NCBI GenBank assembly: GCA_003819975.1 | Contig: RPPU01000158.1 | Span: forward strand, 1-8,605 | Direction: 5' to 3' | Length of the DNA: 8,605 nt | From: Desulfobacteraceae bacterium | GTDB taxonomy: Bacteria > Desulfobacterota > DSM-4660 > Desulfatiglandales > HGW-15 | Part shown: positions 2,519-8,164 of the stretch, piece by piece | How positions within the stretch are numbered: the stretch's first letter is position 1 | Layout: each line of letters starts with the position of its first letter | The notes under the pieces: generated by a model | Database searches by the model: none | What the model was told of the DNA's origin: nothing | What the model saw: the letters and a program-made list of their open reading frames with translations, nothing else | Program-made: the position numbers and the translations under genes

Positions 2519-2563
2519 ATGAAATCTTGGGGAACAAGATTTCATGTAACGCGGCTACGCCGC
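2519..2563. repeat. Hairpin repeat E1 (A + B hairpins), between the pseC tail scar and pseB
   Basis: A hairpin 2519-2545: arms ATGAAATCTTG and CAAGATTTCAT, an 11-bp perfect stem with loop GGGAA. B hairpin 2551-2563: GCGGC-TAC-GCCGC. The B hairpin starts 2 bases after the stop of the duplicated pseC tail (coding-strand view), and the A hairpin ends 24 bases before the pseB start. No U-tract follows, so it is not a classical terminator. It is one of about twelve related copies in the window. Confidence 0.9.
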
Positions 2564-2565
2564 TA

Positions 2566-2670
2566 TTAACTATTAAAAGACCAAAGGGTTTGGGTTACAA
2601 AATCGAACATATCTTGAGTCATAGCCGGGAAAAGGGGCAGGCTCAGATAGTTTGCAAAATATTTTTTTGC
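2566..2670 (-). pseudogene. Duplicated 3' end of pseC (about 34 codons), detached remnant
   Basis: The minus strand reads KKYFANYLSLPLFPAMTQ and on to a TAA at 2566-2568, nearly the same as the C-terminus of the intact pseC just upstream (EKYFANCFSLPLFPAMTQ, stop at 2721). Of 29 aligned codons from that lysine onward I count 14 identical, 9 synonymous and 6 replaced, mostly conservatively. The pattern is that of two functional genes that diverged before being brought together. The copy is offset about 155 bases from the original and each is followed by the same B + A hairpin pair, so gene tail and repeat form one duplicated block. An ATG inside hairpin E2 (2698-2700) happens to be in frame and would give a 44-residue peptide, but it has no ribosome binding site. 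Confidence 0.85.
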
Positions 2671-2672
2671 TA

Positions 2673-2718
2673 ATGAAATCTTGCAGGAGCAAGATTTCAT
2701 GTACCGCGGCTGAGCCAC
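2673..2718. repeat. Hairpin repeat E2 (A + degenerate B), directly after pseC
   Basis: A hairpin 2673-2700: ATGAAATCTTG and CAAGATTTCAT around CAGGAG; one more C-G pair can extend the stem to 12 with loop AGGA. B hairpin 2706-2718: GCGGC-TGA-GCCAC, one base off the perfect palindrome. On the coding strand B starts 2 bases after the pseC stop. The far side of the A hairpin marks the junction with the duplicated pseC tail. Confidence 0.85.
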
Positions 2719-2720
2719 TT

Positions 2721-3923
2721 TTATTTAAGAATGGATAAAAGGGTTTGGACGACATAGTCGAACATCTCTTGGGTCATGGCCGGAAAAAGAGGCAGGCTGA
2801 AACAGTTCGCAAAATACTTCTCGGACTCCGGGAATTGCGCCGGGTCCCTATGCCATTTTGCATGATGGAAGGGTTGCCGGTAAATCGGGATATAGTGAAC
2901 TTGCGTATAAATATTCCGCTCTCTGAGCTGCCGATAAAGATCATTTCTCTTAACCCCGCAAGCCGGTCCGAGTCGTAATGGATATAAATGATAACAGGGA
3001 TCCGTATGCTCCGGCCAAGGCGGAAGAATAAAAATCTCTTTTTTCGCCGCTTCCGCGAATGCCTTGTTGTAATTGCGGACAATCTGTTGCCGCTTTGCTT
3101 TATGTCGCTCGAGTCGTTTCATTTGCGAAAGGCCCAGTACGGAATGGATATCGGTCAAACGGTAATTGTACCCAAGCATTTGCATCTCATGATACCAAGC
3201 CGGCTTTTCCGAGCCTGCAATAATGGATGGATCCGGTAATCTATAGTTAGAATGGTTTCGTTCAATACCATGACTGGAAAGCAGTCTTAATTTGTGCGCC
3301 AGATGATCGTCATTGGTAAGAATGGCGCCGCCCTCGCCGGTGGTTATGGTTTTGACCGGATGAAACGAAAAAATCGCCAGATCCGTATGGGCGCAGGATC
3401 CGCAAGCATAGGTCTCCCCTTTATATTCATAAGTCGATCCGATGCTGTGCGCGGCATCTTCGATCAGTTTAAAACCATAGTGATCCGCCAGCTTCCTGAA
3501 ACGGGGAAGATCGGCCGGGACGCCGGCGAAATCGACCGGAATGACGACTTTAGGAACGGCTTGAGTTTTACAATAGGATTCGAGTTCATCGGGCGAAAGA
3601 CAAAGGGTTTGCGGATCAATATCAACAAAATCAGGACGGCCGTCGCAATAAACAATGCAATTCGCGGATGCTAAAAACGAGATCGGACTCGTTACGCCTA
3701 AATCTCCCGGGCCAACCTTCAAAGCCAAACAAGCCAGATGCAGAGCGGCCGTGCCGTTGGCCACGGCAATGCAATGTTTGGCTCCGCATTGAGCAGCGAC
3801 TGCTTCCTCAAATTCGGTGACCTTCGGCCCCATGGTCAACCAATCCGATTGCAGCACCGCGATCACGGCTTCGATGTCTTCCGGAATGACGCTTTGCCGG
3901 CCGTATGGAATGGGTTTTTTCAT
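2721..3923 (-). CDS. pseC: UDP-4-amino-4,6-dideoxy-N-acetyl-L-altrosamine transaminase
   Basis: 400 residues, a fold-type I PLP aminotransferase of the DegT/DnrJ/EryC1 (sugar aminotransferase) family. It converts the PseB 4-keto product to the 4-amino sugar, usually with glutamate as donor. Seen: the PseC-like N-terminus PYGRQSVIPEDIEAV (6-20) and SDWLTMGP (26-33), ANGTAALHLA (55-64) at the PLP phosphate site, IEDAAHSIGS (154-163) with the PLP-ring aspartate D156, and SFHPVKTITTGEGG (186-199) with the Schiff-base lysine K191. The ATG at 3923 fits the family start; the upstream Shine-Dalgarno is weak (GAAGTG, 5 bases away). pseB follows after 226 bases that hold two hairpin repeats and a second copy of this gene's own C-terminus. 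A different 4-aminotransferase is possible in principle, but the pairing with pseB and pseG fixes the role. Confidence 0.93.
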   Translation of the reverse strand: MKKPIPYGRQSVIPEDIEAVIAVLQSDWLTMGPKVTEFEEAVAAQCGAKHCIAVANGTAALHLACLALKVGPGDLGVTSPISFLASANCIVYCDGRPDFVDIDPQTLCLSPDELESYCKTQAVPKVVIPVDFAGVPADLPRFRKLADHYGFKLIEDAAHSIGSTYEYKGETYACGSCAHTDLAIFSFHPVKTITTGEGGAILTNDDHLAHKLRLLSSHGIERNHSNYRLPDPSIIAGSEKPAWYHEMQMLGYNYRLTDIHSVLGLSQMKRLERHKAKRQQIVRNYNKAFAEAAKKEIFILPPWPEHTDPCYHLYPLRLGPACGVKRNDLYRQLRERNIYTQVHYIPIYRQPFHHAKWHRDPAQFPESEKYFANCFSLPLFPAMTQEMFDYVVQTLLSILK

Positions 3924-3934
3924 CGTTTCACTTC

Positions 3935-3962
3935 ATGAAATTTTGAAGGAACAAAATTTCAT
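3935..3962. repeat. Hairpin repeat E3 (A hairpin only), between the 61-residue gene and pseC
   Basis: Arms ATGAAATTTTG and CAAAATTTCAT form a perfect 11-bp stem with loop AAGGAA. Compared with E1 the inner stem has TTTTG/CAAAA for TCTTG/CAAGA, a compensatory pair change. No B hairpin is recognisable. It fills most of a 44-base gap: 5 bases from the upstream stop codon and 11 bases from the pseC ATG, so an RNA hairpin here would sit against the pseC ribosome binding site. Confidence 0.85.
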
Positions 3963-3967
3963 ATAAA

Positions 3968-4153
3968 TTAAGTTCTTGCATACATAAAAAGTTCAATTAA
4001 ATATTTTTGAATCTGCGCTTCCGTCCACTCCGGATGTTCTTTTCGTAAGCCGACTTCCTTTAGGTGCCGGGCGGAAAAATACAATCTGAGAGATAACTTC
4101 AGCTTTTCTTCGGCGGACATGCTTTGAAAAATTTGTTTTTGCTCGGGAAGCAT
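3968..4153 (-). CDS. Small conserved-looking hypothetical protein, 61 residues
   Basis: 61 residues, MLPEQKQIFQSMSAEEKLKL at the start and LIELFMYART at the end. It is charged and helical, with no signal peptide, membrane segment or cysteines. The SAEEKL-x-LSLRLYFSARHLK, EHPEWTEAQI and LFMYART blocks look to me like a small, widespread family annotated only as hypothetical; this is recollection, not a search. It begins 67 bases after the stop of the dehydrogenase-acyltransferase gene and ends just before hairpin E3 and pseC. The Shine-Dalgarno is poor (GAG 9 bases before the ATG). I treat it as real because it is codirectional, fills the gap between two genes and its composition is protein-like. 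Function unknown; a glycan role is not implied by the residues. Confidence 0.7.
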   Translation of the reverse strand: MLPEQKQIFQSMSAEEKLKLSLRLYFSARHLKEVGLRKEHPEWTEAQIQKYLIELFMYART

Positions 4154-4178
4154 CGCAATAACTCAGATTCAAATCACA

Positions 4179-4207
4179 ATTATTTAGGGTTTAAAACCTA
4201 TTAACAA
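4179..4207 (-). promoter_or_regulatory. Possible sigma-70-like promoter before the 61-residue gene and pseC
   Basis: On the minus strand TTGTTA (4202-4207), a 17-base spacer and AATAAT (4179-4184) match the -35 and -10 consensus at 4/6 and 5/6. Transcription would start some 15-20 bases before the ATG at 4153, giving an internal start for the pse genes. This is the only gap between spaced genes that has no hairpin repeat. It is a consensus match in AT-rich DNA, so it is weak evidence. Confidence 0.27.
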
Positions 4208-4220
4208 CTAAAAGCCCTAT

Positions 4221-5846
4221 CTATATTTTGGAGACATTTTTCCCGTCTTGAATATATTTCAAGCCGCAGGTATCGCAAATGGCTTTATTCTTCTCAAAAT
4301 GCAGCCGTACTCCGCATTGACACATCCAACCCTTGATTTCGGCCGGATTGCCCACCACCAAGGCATAGTCCGGAACATCGTCGATAACCACGGAACCGGC
4401 GCCCACAAACGCAAACCGGCCGATCGTATGCCCGCAAACGATCGTGCAGTTGGCGCCCAGCGAAGCACCCTCTTTCACTAAAGTTTTACGGATTTCATCT
4501 TTGCGCGGAATATAACTGCGGGGATTATAAACATTCGTAAATACCATGGAAGGTCCGCAAAAAACACCGTCTTCTAAAGCGACCCCATCGTAAACCGAAA
4601 CATTGTTCTGGATCTTGACCTTATTGCCGATGATCACATCCGGACCGATCACCACATTTTGACCGATATTGCAATTTTGACCGATTTTACTGCCCTTGAT
4701 CACATGGGAGAAATGCCAGATCTTGGTTCCCCGACCGATCTCGCAACCCGAATCGACGATGGCGGTAGGATGAACAAATAGGTCGGGCTTAACGTTTTCC
4801 GGGCGAACCTCTTTTCGGATCTGAACGGTTCGACCCTCATTTTCCAGCGATTCCTGACAGGCCTGTAATACTTTGAGCACCTGCAGCGCCTCTTCTCCGT
4901 CTGTTTTGGGCCGAATCCGTTGGACAACACAATCGATAAAATGTTGACATTCTTCCCGTAAAGGCTCTTTCTTTTCCAAAACCACCTTCTCGGCTTCTTT
5001 CTTGTCGGGTACGGGCAGATGATCTTTCCATTCGATTCGATGCGGATAAAGCAGCAGTTTATTTTCCGGTTCCACATCATTGAAAACCGCCATCTTCCGA
5101 TCACCCACCACTACCAAGCGTTGTTCTTTGTAAGGATGCAGCCAACTCACGAAAATATGCGCCCGGATCCCGGAAGCAAAGGACAACGTGCTAAGGGTGA
5201 CATCCGCTATTTTTTCCTGTAAATAATTTCCACCCGTGCTGCTTACTCTTTCGGGCATCTCGCCGGCCAGAGCAAGGATGACGGATAAATCATGGGGTGC
5301 AAAACTCCAGAGAATATTTTCTTCTTTTCTGATTTTTCCCAAATTCAGACGGTTGGAATAGATGTATTGAATCTTGCCCAAATCACCGTCTGCAATGAGT
5401 TGTTTCAGCTTGACGACCGCCGGATGATACTGAAGCAAATGCCCGACCATCAATATTTTTTTCCTTTTTAAGGCAAGCTCGTGCAACTCGATCCCTTGGG
5501 CCTCATATAATGCCAAGGGCTTTTCAACAAACACATCTTTATCGGCCAGCAAAGCGGCTTTAACCATTTCAAAGTGCGTCTCCGCCGGACTGGCAATCGC
5601 CACGGCCTGAATTCCGGAGTTCGCTAAAACCGCCGCATAAGAAACCTCTCTTTCAATATGCGGATATAACTTGGCCATTTCGTCTAACGCGGGCTTTTGA
5701 TTTTCGCAAATCATCCCCAAAACGCCAAGCCCGGCGAAATTTCTGACTAAATTTTTTCCCCAATACCCCGCGCCGATGACGGCTAAAAAGTTACGCGGAA
5801 CTGTAATATCACCTGTTTTCACAAAGATGTTTGCATGTTCATTCAT
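4221..5846 (-). CDS. Gfo/Idh/MocA sugar dehydrogenase fused to hexapeptide acyltransferase with C-terminal zinc ribbon
   Basis: 541 residues in three parts. Residues 20-345 are a Gfo/Idh/MocA oxidoreductase: Rossmann loop [10 protein letters not shown] (23-32), catalytic-type VEKPL (107-111), GHLLQYHP (135-142) and APHDLS (183-188). Residues 358-505 are a left-handed beta-helix acyltransferase with many hexapeptide turns ([14 protein letters not shown] and on), the FTNVYNP loop (436-442) and a closing [11 protein letters not shown]. Residues 509-527 carry CQC...CDTC, four cysteines likely to bind zinc. The halves resemble WbpB/WlbA (3-dehydrogenase of UDP-GlcNAc-uronate) and WbpD/WlbB (3-N-acetyltransferase), normally separate proteins joined by a 3-aminotransferase (WbpE) that is not seen here. 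Substrate is therefore inferred only as a nucleotide sugar. The ATG at 5846 has GGAG 8 bases upstream, directly against hairpin E4. Confidence 0.9.
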
Positions 5847-5858
5847 TGTCGGCGCTCC

Positions 5859-5904
5859 ATAAAATTCCGCAAGGCCGGAATTTTATCAAACGCGGCTTCG
5901 CCGC
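5859..5904. repeat. Hairpin repeat E4 (variant A + B), before the dehydrogenase-acyltransferase gene
   Basis: A hairpin 5859-5886: ATAAAATTCCG and CGGAATTTTAT, 11 perfect pairs, loop CAAGGC. B hairpin 5892-5904: GCGGC-TTC-GCCGC. The stem sequence differs from E1 at several pairs, always on both arms. The coding-strand end of the A hairpin runs straight into the GGAG ribosome binding site of the next gene. Confidence 0.88.
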
Positions 5905-5941
5905 TATTTATAAGATTTTCTTCAAATAATGTTTTATTAAT

Positions 5942-5968
5942 ATGAAATCTTGTTCCTCAAGATTTCAT
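5942..5968. repeat. Hairpin repeat E5 (A hairpin, opposite orientation), overlapping the epimerase stop codon
   Basis: Arms ATGAAATCTTG and CAAGATTTCAT with loop TTCCT, 11 perfect pairs. The loop is the complement of the AGGAA loop of E6, so this copy is inverted relative to E1-E4. On the coding strand the gene ends TGATGAAATC: the final A of the stop codon is the first base of the repeat. It faces E4 across about 37 AT-rich bases, and the B hairpin of E4 may serve both. Confidence 0.88.
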
Positions 5969-6927
5969 CATTCTTTGAAGAAGTCAATCACGCTTTGCAC
6001 GATGGCCGTTAAATCGTAATTCGGCTTAAACCCGATCAGCTTACCGATTTTATCTATATTCGGGCACCGGCGCTGCATATCTTCAAAGCCGGGGCCATAA
6101 GCCTTTTCATACGGAATATGCTCGATCGGAGATCGGCTGCCGGTCATCTCCTTAACTTTTTGCGCCAACTCATTAATGCTTACTTCCTGGTCATTTCCGA
6201 CATTAAAGACATCGCCTTCCGCCCGCGGCTCATCCATTAACTTCATGATCGCGTTTACGACATCCCGGACATGCGTAAAACTGCGGGTTTGGGTGCCGTC
6301 GCCGAATACCGAAATCGGTTTCCCGAACAAAGCGCTTTGCACAAAATTGGGCAACACCATACCGTATTGTCCGGTCTGGCGCGGACCAACCGTATTGAAT
6401 AAGCGGCCGATGACGACCGGCAACTTCTTTTCGTCGTAATAGGCCAAAGCCAGGAATTCATCCAGGGTTTTGGAGCAAGCATACGCCCAGCGCCGCTTCT
6501 TGACCGACCCCATGATACGGTTGTCGTCTTCAGCCAGAGAGTGATCCAGATGATTACCGTAAATCTCGGACGTTGAGGCTACAAAAGTTTTTTTCTTGAA
6601 TCGATTCGCCAATCGGAGAACCGTTTCGGAGCCTTTGACGTTGATGTCCAGAGTCTCCACCGGATGATCCATGATGGTCCGGACGCCTACGGCCGCGGCC
6701 AGATGATAGATATGATCCGCTTTGAATATCAGTTCATTCATTACCGATTCGTTTAAAATGGTATCCACCACCAAATGAAATCGTTCGTGATTATGAATCT
6801 TCTCGATATTGGCGAGCTTACCGGTCCAGAGATTGTCGATCACAAACACTTCATTGCCGATCTCCAACTGTTTTTCCGCCAGATGCGACCCGATAAAACC
6901 GGCTCCGCCTGTTATCAATATCTTCAT
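5968..6927 (-). CDS. NAD-dependent nucleotide-sugar epimerase/dehydratase (extended SDR)
   Basis: 319 residues, the usual length for GalE/UDP-glucuronate decarboxylase-like enzymes. Seen: TGGAGFIGSH (6-15) NAD loop, HLAAAVGV (75-82), STSEIYG (118-124), the YACSK catalytic pair Y149/K153, RLFNTVGPRQ (175-184) and GDGTQTRSFTHVRD (209-222). The glutamate in STSE is shared with UDP-xylose synthases, ArnA decarboxylase and GDP-mannose dehydratases, while plain GalE enzymes usually have another residue there; so decarboxylation or dehydration cannot be excluded and I do not give a symbol. The ATG at 6927 is backed by a strong GAAGGAG 8 bases upstream. The stop codon overlaps hairpin E5 by one base. 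It precedes the dehydrogenase-acyltransferase fusion and probably supplies or modifies its nucleotide-sugar substrate. Confidence 0.92.
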   Translation of the reverse strand: MKILITGGAGFIGSHLAEKQLEIGNEVFVIDNLWTGKLANIEKIHNHERFHLVVDTILNESVMNELIFKADHIYHLAAAVGVRTIMDHPVETLDINVKGSETVLRLANRFKKKTFVASTSEIYGNHLDHSLAEDDNRIMGSVKKRRWAYACSKTLDEFLALAYYDEKKLPVVIGRLFNTVGPRQTGQYGMVLPNFVQSALFGKPISVFGDGTQTRSFTHVRDVVNAIMKLMDEPRAEGDVFNVGNDQEVSINELAQKVKEMTGSRSPIEHIPYEKAYGPGFEDMQRRCPNIDKIGKLIGFKPNYDLTAIVQSVIDFFKE

Positions 6928-7016
6928 CGCGCGCGCTCCTTCGTCGTATATGTTTGTTTATGGTTTCCAAATAGCAACAGTATCATGTCACGTCATTCCA
7001 TGTTTCTGCGCGCTTT

Positions 7017-7061
7017 ATGAAATCTTGAGGAACAAGATTTCATATAACGCGGCTGCGCCGC
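7017..7061. repeat. Hairpin repeat E6 (A + B), upstream of the epimerase
   Basis: A hairpin 7017-7043: ATGAAATCTTG and CAAGATTTCAT, loop AGGAA. B hairpin 7049-7061: GCGGC-TGC-GCCGC. It is one of the best consensus copies. Between it and the epimerase start lie 89 bases with no other recognisable signal except the ribosome binding site. An AT-rich stretch of about 80 bases (7062-7140) separates it from E7; I see no convincing promoter there. Confidence 0.9.
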
Positions 7062-7140
7062 TCGTTTAAAATAACAAGATCACTTTAAAAAAAACGAAAT
7101 GCTTAGTTTTCCGATTCATTCATTAACATATACTCGCTTT

Positions 7141-7187
7141 ATAAAATCCCGCGGGAACCGGGATTTTATATAACGCGGCTGCGCCAC
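7141..7187. repeat. Hairpin repeat E7 (variant A + B), directly after the nuclease gene
   Basis: A hairpin 7141-7169: ATAAAATCCCG and CGGGATTTTAT with loop CGGGAAC. B hairpin 7175-7187: GCGGC-TGC-GCCAC. The A-to-B joint and B hairpin are almost identical to E6 while the A stem differs at several pairs on both arms, the clearest example of covariation. On the coding strand B starts one base after the TAG of the nuclease gene. Confidence 0.88.
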
Positions 7188-7188
7188 T

Positions 7189-7818
7189 CTATATTTCTTT
7201 GTCCAGCACATTTCTGATGGTTTGGGCCGAGACGGCTCCTATGCCTTCCACTTGCATTAATTCTTCGATATCGGCATTCATAACCTTTCGGACGGTTTTA
7301 AAACGGCCCATCAACCGCTTTGCAATAGTCGGACCGACTTTCGGCAAACCTTGTAAAATAAAGAGTTGTCTGGATTTTAAACGCTTTGGACGGTAAGCGC
7401 CCCGCAAGGGAATGACATCTTTATTTGCTTCAGCTTGTCTGCCGATCATTTGAATAATCTTCACGGAGTCTTCTTTTGACCTGGAATAAAGTGCCGGAAT
7501 ATACCAAATAACCTGTGCGGAAATCAATGCGCCCCTTATGGCTGTCGGATCCATATCCAGATCTTCTTTGTATGGATTACCCTCGATCAATAAAATCGGA
7601 GCATAACAATATTTTTTCAGATTGGATAATTGCAAAAACAACCTGCCGTCAATAATGGAAACAATAAAATCCCGTGCCGTTTTGCGTTCGACCGTGACCG
7701 AATCGTTGATGACATAATCCCCGTATTTGACCGTTTTAACTTCCACATCGATATCGGCCTTTCTCAAAAGTTCGATCAATCCGGACGCTTTTTCGCGATA
7801 ATCGACTATAATTCGCAA
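7189..7818 (-). CDS. XPF/ERCC4-type structure-specific nuclease with tandem helix-hairpin-helix
   Basis: 209 residues. Residues 1-130 are an ERCC4 nuclease domain: VDYREK (5-10), YGDYVI (32-37) and VERKTARDF (43-51), giving the D6/D34/E44-R45-K46/D50 pattern of the GDx(n)ERKx3D active site. Residues 152-206 hold two helix-hairpin-helix motifs, LQGLPKVGPTIAKRL and MQVEGIGAVSAQTI. This is the compact layout of archaeal XPF without helicase. Such enzymes cut branched DNA, 3' flaps and forks near junctions, usually as dimers with metal ions. Start is TTG (7816-7818), chosen because the protein begins right at the family N-terminus and GAGGA lies 9 bases upstream; no in-frame ATG is near. Its place inside a glycan operon is unusual, and hairpin repeats crowd both flanks. 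Biochemical class is firm; substrate and role here are unknown. Confidence 0.9.
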   Translation of the reverse strand: MRIIVDYREKASGLIELLRKADIDVEVKTVKYGDYVINDSVTVERKTARDFIVSIIDGRLFLQLSNLKKYCYAPILLIEGNPYKEDLDMDPTAIRGALISAQVIWYIPALYSRSKEDSVKIIQMIGRQAEANKDVIPLRGAYRPKRLKSRQLFILQGLPKVGPTIAKRLMGRFKTVRKVMNADIEELMQVEGIGAVSAQTIRNVLDKEI

Positions 7819-7827
7819 TATCGGATT

Positions 7828-7832
7828 TCCTC
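7828..7832 (-). promoter_or_regulatory. Ribosome binding site deciding the TTG start of the nuclease
   Basis: GAGGA on the minus strand, 9 bases before the TTG at 7816-7818. The B hairpin of repeat E8 ends only 2 bases upstream of it, so folding of the repeat could affect access to this site. Confidence 0.6.
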
Positions 7833-7834
7833 AA

Positions 7835-7880
7835 GCGGCGCAGCCGCGCTATATGAAATCGTGTTCCTGCGCGATTTCAT
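7835..7880. repeat. Hairpin repeat E8 (B + A, inverted orientation), upstream of the nuclease
   Basis: B hairpin 7835-7847: GCGGC-GCA-GCCGC. A hairpin 7853-7880: ATGAAATCGTG against CGCGATTTCAT, nine perfect pairs, then a T-G wobble and a G-C pair, loop TTCCTG. Inner stem TCGTG is shared with E10. It is followed on the plus strand by CCCTTCGATTACAT, also found after E10. Confidence 0.85.
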
Positions 7881-7940
7881 AGCTCCGCCCCTTCGATTAC
7901 ATCTGGGGGATGTTTTCTGCTGAAAATGCTGTTTTTAAAA

Positions 7941-7986
7941 GCAGCGATAGCTGCGTCATATGAAATCTTGTTCTTCAAGATTTCAT
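7941..7986. repeat. Hairpin repeat E9 (B + A, inverted orientation)
   Basis: B hairpin 7941-7954: GCAGC-GATA-GCTGC, where the central pair of the usual GCGGC/GCCGC stem has changed on both arms. A hairpin 7960-7986: ATGAAATCTTG and CAAGATTTCAT, loop TTCTT. Second half of the first unit of the tandem duplication. Confidence 0.85.
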
Positions 7987-8002
7987 GGCCTAGCCGCATT
8001 TC

Positions 8003-8030
8003 ATGAAATCGTGTTCCTGCACGATTTCAT
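8003..8030. repeat. Hairpin repeat E10 (A hairpin, inverted orientation)
   Basis: Arms ATGAAATCGTG and CACGATTTCAT form 11 perfect pairs with loop TTCCTG. A degenerate GGC-CTA-GCC palindrome (7987-7995) may be the remains of its B hairpin. Opens the second unit of the tandem duplication. Confidence 0.85.
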
Positions 8031-8086
8031 CGTCCCTTCGATTACATGCACCGATGTCTCTACCGAAATAAAATACTTTTAATAAA

Positions 8087-8131
8087 GCGGCGCAGCCGCG
8101 TCATATGAAATCTTGTTCTACAAGATTCCAT
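8087..8131. repeat. Hairpin repeat E11 (B + A, inverted orientation)
   Basis: B hairpin 8087-8099: GCGGC-GCA-GCCGC. A hairpin 8105-8131: ATGAAATCTTG against CAAGATTCCAT, with one mismatch near the base of the stem; loop TTCTA. The only full-length A copy apart from E8 that is not fully paired. Confidence 0.85.
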
Positions 8132-8143
8132 CGGCGTAACCGA

Positions 8144-8164
8144 GGAATCTTCTCAAGATTTCAT
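8144..8164. repeat. Decayed hairpin repeat E12, overlapping the NusG-paralog stop codon
   Basis: Core AATCTT (8146-8151) pairs with AAGATT (8155-8160), and the right arm still reads CAAGATTTCAT (8154-8164). On the coding strand the gene ends TAATGAAATC, so the last A of the TAA stop is the first base of the repeat, as at the epimerase stop. The outer left arm is lost. Confidence 0.65.

Follow-up and report, generated by a model that had tools for sequence, protein, structure and literature searches.

The stretch of DNA analysed here (the whole of metagenome contig RPPU01000158.1, 8605 nt, from a Desulfobacteraceae bacterium, assembly GCA_003819975.1), hereafter the window, carries short palindromic repeats between positions 2519 and 8164, which raises the question of what these repeats are and why their hairpins stay paired. 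The repeat unit is a hairpin A with a 10-11 bp stem, a 4-5 nt spacer and a hairpin B with a 5 bp stem. We propose that it is probably a small, non-autonomous mobile palindromic DNA repeat whose fold stays constant and which behaves like a repetitive extragenic palindrome (REP). A first-pass annotation had counted about twelve copies, all outside genes, and the repeat search, a covariance model and the gene assignment agreed with it: 11 copies and one remnant were found, all of them intergenic. Every gene assigned in the window lies on the minus strand; with genes as assigned, the non-genic share is 1066 nt (12.4%), and every repeat copy falls there.

The covariance model, R1, was built from a seed of 55 copies, 9 from the window and 46 from elsewhere, and the 9 therefore match by construction. 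On the window it gave eight places at E ≤ 2.1e-8, followed by E5, E3, E10 and the remnant at the weaker values listed below; the remaining 13 of its 25 rows either repeated the palindromes on the reverse strand or were weak and unrelated. All eight stretches that were folded were more stable than their dinucleotide shuffles, with z values from -2.38 to -6.59 as RNA and from -2.36 to -7.18 as DNA. The copies are as follows.

2519..2564, plus strand: E1, A, spacer and B (R1 E 3.6e-11; RNA z -6.59, DNA z -7.18)
2673..2719, plus strand: E2, A and an imperfect B, in the second half of a 155-nt duplication with E1 (R1 E 3.5e-9)
3935..3961, plus strand: E3, A alone, 12 nt upstream of the minus-strand DegT-family start codon (R1 E 0.0011; RNA z -4.03)
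5859..5905, plus strand: E4, A (inner stem TTCCG/CGGAA) and B, 12 nt upstream of the minus-strand Gfo/Idh start codon (R1 E 1.3e-9; RNA z -3.36)
5942..5968, minus strand: E5, A alone, overlapping the epimerase stop codon (R1 E 3.2e-4)
7017..7062, plus strand: E6, A and B (R1 E 4.6e-11; RNA z -5.65)
7141..7188, plus strand: E7, A (inner stem TCCCG/CGGGA) and B with one pair altered, ending at the ERCC4-type gene (R1 E 1.6e-10)
7834..7880, minus strand: E8, A with one mismatch and B, adjoining an ops-like motif (R1 E 4.1e-9)
7941..7986, minus strand: E9, A and B, the latter (7941-7954) with the paired change GCAGC/GCTGC (R1 E 2.1e-8)
7987..8030, minus strand: E10, A (inner stem TCGTG/CACGA) and an imperfect B (R1 E 0.012 at 8003-8030)
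8086..8131, minus strand: E11, A and B (R1 E 2.1e-10; RNA z -4.46)
8132..8164, strand unassigned: E12, decayed remnant of an A-type palindrome (R1 E 0.84 at 8144-8162)

The bipartite design described by the first-pass annotation holds for most copies, although E3 and E5 have no B and the B of E2, E7 and E10 is imperfect. Likewise, the inner arms of A do change together in most copies, the exception being E8 (TCGTG/CGCGA), which has one mismatch when read from A to B and a T-G wobble on the opposite strand. The paired change in B of E9, from GCGGC/GCCGC to GCAGC/GCTGC, is real, whereas the GGAA/TTCC-like loop of A is particular to the window, since the A loop of other genomes is usually T-N-C. 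An intrinsic terminator would have a G+C-rich stem with a U run after it; by reading, with no terminator scan run, hairpin A has a short G+C part and a U-rich arm inside the stem. The window, the only sequence searched against Rfam, gave no match at gathering thresholds.

The annotation had further proposed that the fold is maintained while the sequence changes, and had suggested covariation as the check. Pairing exceeded that of shuffled alignments in all three sets of copies that were compared. For hairpin A of the 11 window copies, 99.1% of cells were paired against 90.8% after shuffling, and there were 10 two-sided changes against 2.1 (none of 500 shuffles reached this number); the number of extra pair types in the same copies, 6 against 6.8, was not above the shuffles (440 of 500 reached it). 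In an alignment of 55 copies, drawn from the window and from 46 places elsewhere, 98.5% of cells paired against 94.5%, with 34 two-sided changes against 6.7, and neither value was reached in 500 shuffles. When these alignments were slid out of register, pairing fell to 34.5-51.6%. A larger set was collected with a sequence-only profile, which gave 221 places, 205 copies with a full A and 146 distinct cores. Hairpin A was paired in 98.4% of cells of these cores (shuffled maximum 95.1%). Its cells included 51 that were paired after changes on both sides, 17 with a one-sided wobble and 24 that were broken, and 11 distinct, fully complementary inner trinucleotide stems accounted for 121 of the 146. 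Hairpin B was paired in 98.0% of cells, where shuffles averaged 97.4% and reached 97.9% at most; here the corresponding cells numbered 4, 3 and 12. The covariation signal is strong for A and weak for B. However, B was under-tested because B itself, like the outer 3' part of A, was fixed in the seed pattern, and in the register control on the 146 cores the +3 slide of B (0.971) is uninformative, as the row cut kept only part of the pairs. The copies are moreover related and not independent, and the pairing counts therefore overstate the number of events.

Paired changes could also be produced by mutation alone. Quasipalindrome correction, a known mechanism, copies one arm onto the other by template switching, so that a palindrome stays perfect without selection. 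The 25 of 146 cores that fell short of full complementarity, mostly by one pair, are the fairly common one-mismatch intermediates expected if arms are corrected later, and shuffle controls cannot separate mutation from selection. On the other hand, the outer shell ATRAAAT/ATTTYAT and hairpin B are nearly invariant in sequence across genomes, suggesting that arm matching is not the sole constraint. The mechanism would also cover the covariation but neither the spread nor the placement of the repeat. As the whole explanation it is very unlikely, but it may hold beside a mobile repeat.

The annotation had expected further copies elsewhere, and these were found in many related genomes. A pattern scan (3' part of A plus B) of GTDB representative contigs gave at least 120 stretches in at least 28 assemblies. 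Among the assemblies listed, 26 are labelled Deltaproteobacteria, Desulfobacteria, Desulfobacterales, Desulfobacteraceae or Desulfatibia, and the two others 'Proteobacteria' and 'Olavius algarvensis associated proteobacterium Delta 3'. With R1 at E ≤ 0.001, all 22 of the scan genomes that were searched had matches, 2 to 104 each, with at most 150 candidates scored. At E ≤ 1e-5, matches occurred in 17 of 22 genomes of the family of one copy-rich genome, G003 (0 to 96 copies), and in 20 of 24 of the family of a Desulfatibia genome (0 to 52 copies), so that genomes with no copy stand in the same two families as genomes with up to 96. Among 395 genomes drawn from the phylum, matches were found only in G003 and G055, in a search of low sensitivity that scored 12 candidates per genome. 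On viral contigs the A-plus-B pattern occurred in two stretches (R1 E 1.2e-7 and 1.6e-6) and the tail pattern described below in none. Nine further viral stretches matched an A-only pattern; none had an adjoining B hairpin, and they were set aside as chance. One A-B unit from the viral collection (locus L226, 2836-2912) lies behind a gene that by eye is capsid-like, and the contig looks like that of a phage, as judged from its open reading frames (ORFs) by eye with no family search run. From plasmids a single 201-base stretch was retrieved, with no match. In the open-licence literature we found no description of this repeat, and the exact B core string occurred in no paper.

In genomes of the G003 type, many copies have the form TCAAGTT - A - ATAA - B - TCAAAAAAGGAAATTCCTATACTA - TCAAGTT, with a tail of about 24 nt after B, which is present in one family of genomes. 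The flanking 7-mers are direct; some copies carry a variant that is identical on both sides, and in others the two sides differ. Among the 78 tailed copies of the 221 places, left and right 7-mers agreed at 3.51 of 7 positions against 3.22 after shuffling (25 of 2000 shuffles reached this), a slight agreement that would also fit target duplication and lends it weak support. In the copies listed, one foot of the repeat is formed by an ATAA-type spacer, and the opposite foot varies or resembles TCAAGTT. Terminal inverted repeats, which would mark a miniature inverted-repeat transposable element (MITE) of a DDE transposon, were not seen by eye in full-length units, with no search by program for weak ones.

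With a crude ORF caller, 106 copies were divided into 23 inside ORFs, 5 without a gene on one side and 78 between two genes; 83 of the 106 thus lie outside called ORFs, and the 23 'inside' rest on the crude calling. For the 78 intergenic copies, with the same crude gene calling, a gene boundary came within 20 nt of the A end 50 times and of the B end 9 times. A Shine-Dalgarno-like site followed by a start codon and an open frame was found outward of A in 21 of 100 cases, outward of B in 3 of 100 and at 1.9% of random positions. Neighbouring genes were co-directional for 45 of the 78 copies, divergent for 18 and convergent for 15 (background 57/23/21%). GC skew was negative on the A-to-B strand (86 versus 49 copies; flip test 0.0002).

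High copy number (up to 96 per genome) and a mainly intergenic position, as well as the inverted pairs found in some leaders of relatives, where A-B is followed by an inverted B-A, are also properties of REPs, and the repeats might simply be ordinary GTAG or CGTC REP sequences that were missed before. We took an unpaired GTAG or CGTC tetranucleotide at the palindrome foot as the mark of such sequences. Neither was present in the aligned copies by inspection, with no systematic motif count made, and the unit has two unlike hairpins in a fixed order and not one. Together with the lack of a linked transposase in the 30 loci described below, this makes ordinary REPs highly improbable.

Mobility was assessed by comparing corresponding regions between relatives. 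At one operon junction G003 has no copy, and A-B, A-only or nested forms stand there in G005, G007, G008, G011 and G018. At two places (L160:12447 and L161:11123), relatives without the unit resume their sequence at the outer base of A. The G003 copy at L164:5965-6028 is missing from flanks of 95-98% identity in G007 (L198). In the tally of matching sites there were 92 spanning rows and 16 candidate empty rows, with some places counted twice; in other comparisons the flanks diverged or the copy was shared. The loops are themselves occupied: at three places where the A loop of G003 is plain, that of G007 holds an inserted palindrome of about 67 nt.

L160:1600 in G003, plain A loop; L180 in G007, A loop with insert
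L160:12447 in G003, plain A loop; L181 in G007, A loop with insert
L171:7633 in G003, plain A loop; L208 in G007, A loop with insert

At a fourth place (L161:8540 versus L190), B is plain in G003, G005 and G008, and in G007 its loop holds a different palindrome with GCC doubled. Across the examined loci there were 74 occurrences of the first insert family, 10 of them inside A, and the second insert was found six times in B. Loci L160-L209 (from G003, G005, G007, G008 and G018) show many short hits that reveal several further families of repeats, of about 90-280 nt and in high copy.

Differing occupancy, A ends abutting genes and nested palindromes fit a non-autonomous mobile repeat, and a palindromic repeat that is or formerly was mobile explains the copy number, the restriction to a lineage, the varied neighbours and the nested inserts. 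The unit would move as such and settle at new intergenic sites; one of its ends would be the outer base of A, which usually abuts a gene boundary. After insertion its sequence would drift while the arms stayed complementary, and other palindromic repeats would insert into its hairpin loops. The substrate may be single-stranded DNA, with the hairpins exposed in replication. The least certain step is processing in trans by an enzyme of the Y1/HUH type, to which we give somewhat less than an even chance.

The enzyme question was followed through the Y1_Tnp domain (PF01797), which gave 140 matches in 22 repeat-bearing genomes, 21 of them positive. Across these genomes, the number of Y1 genes was correlated with copy number (Spearman 0.61, p 0.003). 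The first-pass annotation had suggested a tie to a REP-associated tyrosine transposase (RAYT) or other HUH enzyme, and this part of its interpretation was not supported in the loci examined, while the maintained fold, the copies in relatives and the REP-like behaviour were. In 30 of the 140 Y1_Tnp loci (83.7 kb), no copy was found at E ≤ 0.1, nor any A, B or tail motif; for comparison, 366.8 kb of G003, in stretches chosen around copies, held 78 A, 32 B and 24 tail motifs. None of the 30 loci contained an autonomous element combining the same subterminal hairpins with a Y1 transposase. Since chance alone would place one or two copies in 83.7 kb, this result excludes linkage but not a role in trans.

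Several observations weigh against a mobile repeat, the empty Y1 loci among them. The correlation with Y1 genes shrinks when both are counted per Mb (0.43, p 0.046), and copy number also tracks genome size (0.46). At L164/L198, the cleanest empty site, the missing stretch and the unit do not coincide, so that a deletion could account for the difference; in three further pairs of aligned loci, presence or absence of the unit did not differ. The TCAAGTT flanks and the tail are absent from the window and most other genomes. Taken by itself, G003 showed no bias in GC skew (34 copies, p 0.29), and copies within one locus had no strand preference (18 same, 15 opposite). Finally, the same operon junctions are repeatedly occupied in several genomes, which also fits a function there.

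These junctions belong to the operon of the window, which encodes a NusG-like protein, an ERCC4-type nuclease, a NAD-dependent epimerase, a Gfo/Idh-hexapeptide fusion, a DegT-family aminotransferase, Polysacc_synt_2 and a fusion of glycosyltransferase-28-C with an acetyltransferase. Window DNA reached best identities of 64-75% in 34 repeat-bearing or related genomes, and the ERCC4-type protein reached 68% among 389 genomes of the order and 83% to a metagenome protein. In this analysis, only the repeat and the operon placed the window near Desulfobacterota. A 61-aa Rv0078B-like (antitoxin-type) protein may be encoded at 3968-4153 (26.9 bits against a Pfam cut-off of 27.1), with relatives of its gene at corresponding places in loci L217 and L218. 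The duplication containing E1 and E2 is a diverged tandem duplication of 155 nt (78%; family D3; 2531-2664 and 2686-2819), which took the end of the DegT-family gene with it and left a gene fragment at 2575-2670.

The operon is kept in whole or part in G001, G009, G012, G020, G021, G022 and G055, with epimerase proteins 80-85% identical. In loci chosen for likeness to the window and not as a random sample, strong R1 matches in the NusG-ERCC4-epimerase stretch far exceeded expectation: 4 against 0.025 in G009, 4 against 0.024 in G001, 2 against 0.004 in G021, 1 against 0.009 in G022 and 1 against 0.025 in G012. G020 has one copy upstream of the epimerase, and G055 has none in the stretch. Next to E8 lies a further feature, outside the repeat.

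7881..7900, minus strand: GTAATCGAAGGGGCGGAGCT, an ops-like motif in the leader that follows the NusG-like gene, found at the corresponding junction in six other genomes too (L217, L219, L220, L221, L222, L223)

We take this motif to be comparable to E. coli ops. It runs straight into hairpin A in four cases (the window, G001, G009 and G012), and in G021, G022 and G055 it does not. A small CTTCGAT/ATCGAAG hairpin precedes the motif in several genomes, and a related variant lies near position 8035 of the window.

The excess at these junctions speaks for another explanation, in which the repeat is a structured regulatory RNA whose hairpins act in leaders or within operons, for example in processing, translation or antitermination with the NusG paralogue, and are kept by selection gene by gene. 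In the epimerase leader, A stands just before the start codon with arms that vary between genomes yet stay paired. In B both arms have changed together, with GCGGC/GCCGC in G012 and GCGAC/GTCGC in G001 and G020. CGGAG lies within the A loop before the epimerase start in G001, G012 and G020 (loci L217, L218 and L220), and the Shine-Dalgarno-like sites outward of A point the same way. LoaP is a known case of a NusG paralogue that works through a hairpin in its leader RNA (PMC12691694). As a separate observation, the epimerase start codon follows the 3' arm of A, an arrangement in which the hairpin might mask the ribosome-binding site. Against a regulatory RNA, about 100 copies per genome stand beside unrelated genes in all orientations, near background, some family members have few or no copies, occupancy varies at matching junctions and the window has no Rfam match. 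As a general account it is unlikely, although the repeats may have an RNA role at some sites, which the hot spot favours. A quite unlikely combination of the two ideas would be a transposable leader element whose A end serves as or exposes a ribosome-binding site; it would have been captured repeatedly at the ops-like signal and at gene starts of NusG-paralogue sugar operons, its RNA fold would control expression, and its loops would be landing sites for palindromes.

A mobile palindromic repeat can be set beside several known systems. As in the systems of REPs, bacterial interspersed mosaic elements (BIMEs) and REP doublets forming hairpins (REPINs) with TnpA-REP (RAYT), the copies are small intergenic palindromes of high number, lineage-specific and sometimes in inverted pairs, as these are described in parts of PMC3733652 and PMC6006769, and Y1_Tnp genes occur in most repeat-bearing genomes here. 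The double hairpin differs in its two unlike hairpins in fixed order, the missing GTAG/CGTC foot, the lack of a linked Y1 gene in the loci examined and an A end at gene starts as well as gene ends. Passages of PMC3733652 also describe REPs lying inside other palindromes, and CGTC-tagged REPs with no known dedicated transposase. The latter are alike in being palindromic repeats without an identified mobilising enzyme, but the present repeat has no CGTC tag and belongs to another phylum and architecture.

Elements of the IS200/IS605 group insert beside a fixed short target without target duplication. Their ends and non-autonomous derivatives, as portrayed in a portion of PMC6006769, likewise have hairpins, and as in the present unit no terminal inverted repeats are seen; in some genomes here, a short fixed TCAAG-like sequence also lies beside one end. 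Unlike them, no autonomous element with these ends was found in the 30 Y1 loci, and no guide sequences were identified. The double-hairpin elements of Allomyces fungal mitochondria are reportedly mobile-looking intergenic hairpin repeats. In sponge mitochondria, according to sections of PMC2800124, repetitive hairpin elements occur in two types that differ by paired substitutions, with conserved stems and changes in the loops. Such elements are alike in being intergenic, having one or two hairpins and being apparently mobile, and unlike in being mitochondrial; sequence kinship lies outside this comparison. Operons of LoaP/RfaH-type NusG paralogues (the former as covered in PMC12691694) share an opening NusG-like gene and hairpins in the leader, but the double hairpins, known here from sequence alone, are in other genomes also found beside many genes of unrelated kinds.

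With this repeat, the palindromic repeats of bacteria gain a family from uncultured sulfate reducers that combines two hairpins in a fixed arrangement and for which no transposase is known. Since close genome pairs carry a plain loop in one member and a nested palindrome in the other, the order of nesting can be read, and the spread and growth of palindromes become testable. If the copies in the NusG operons have a role, they would be mobile repeats turned into leader signals.

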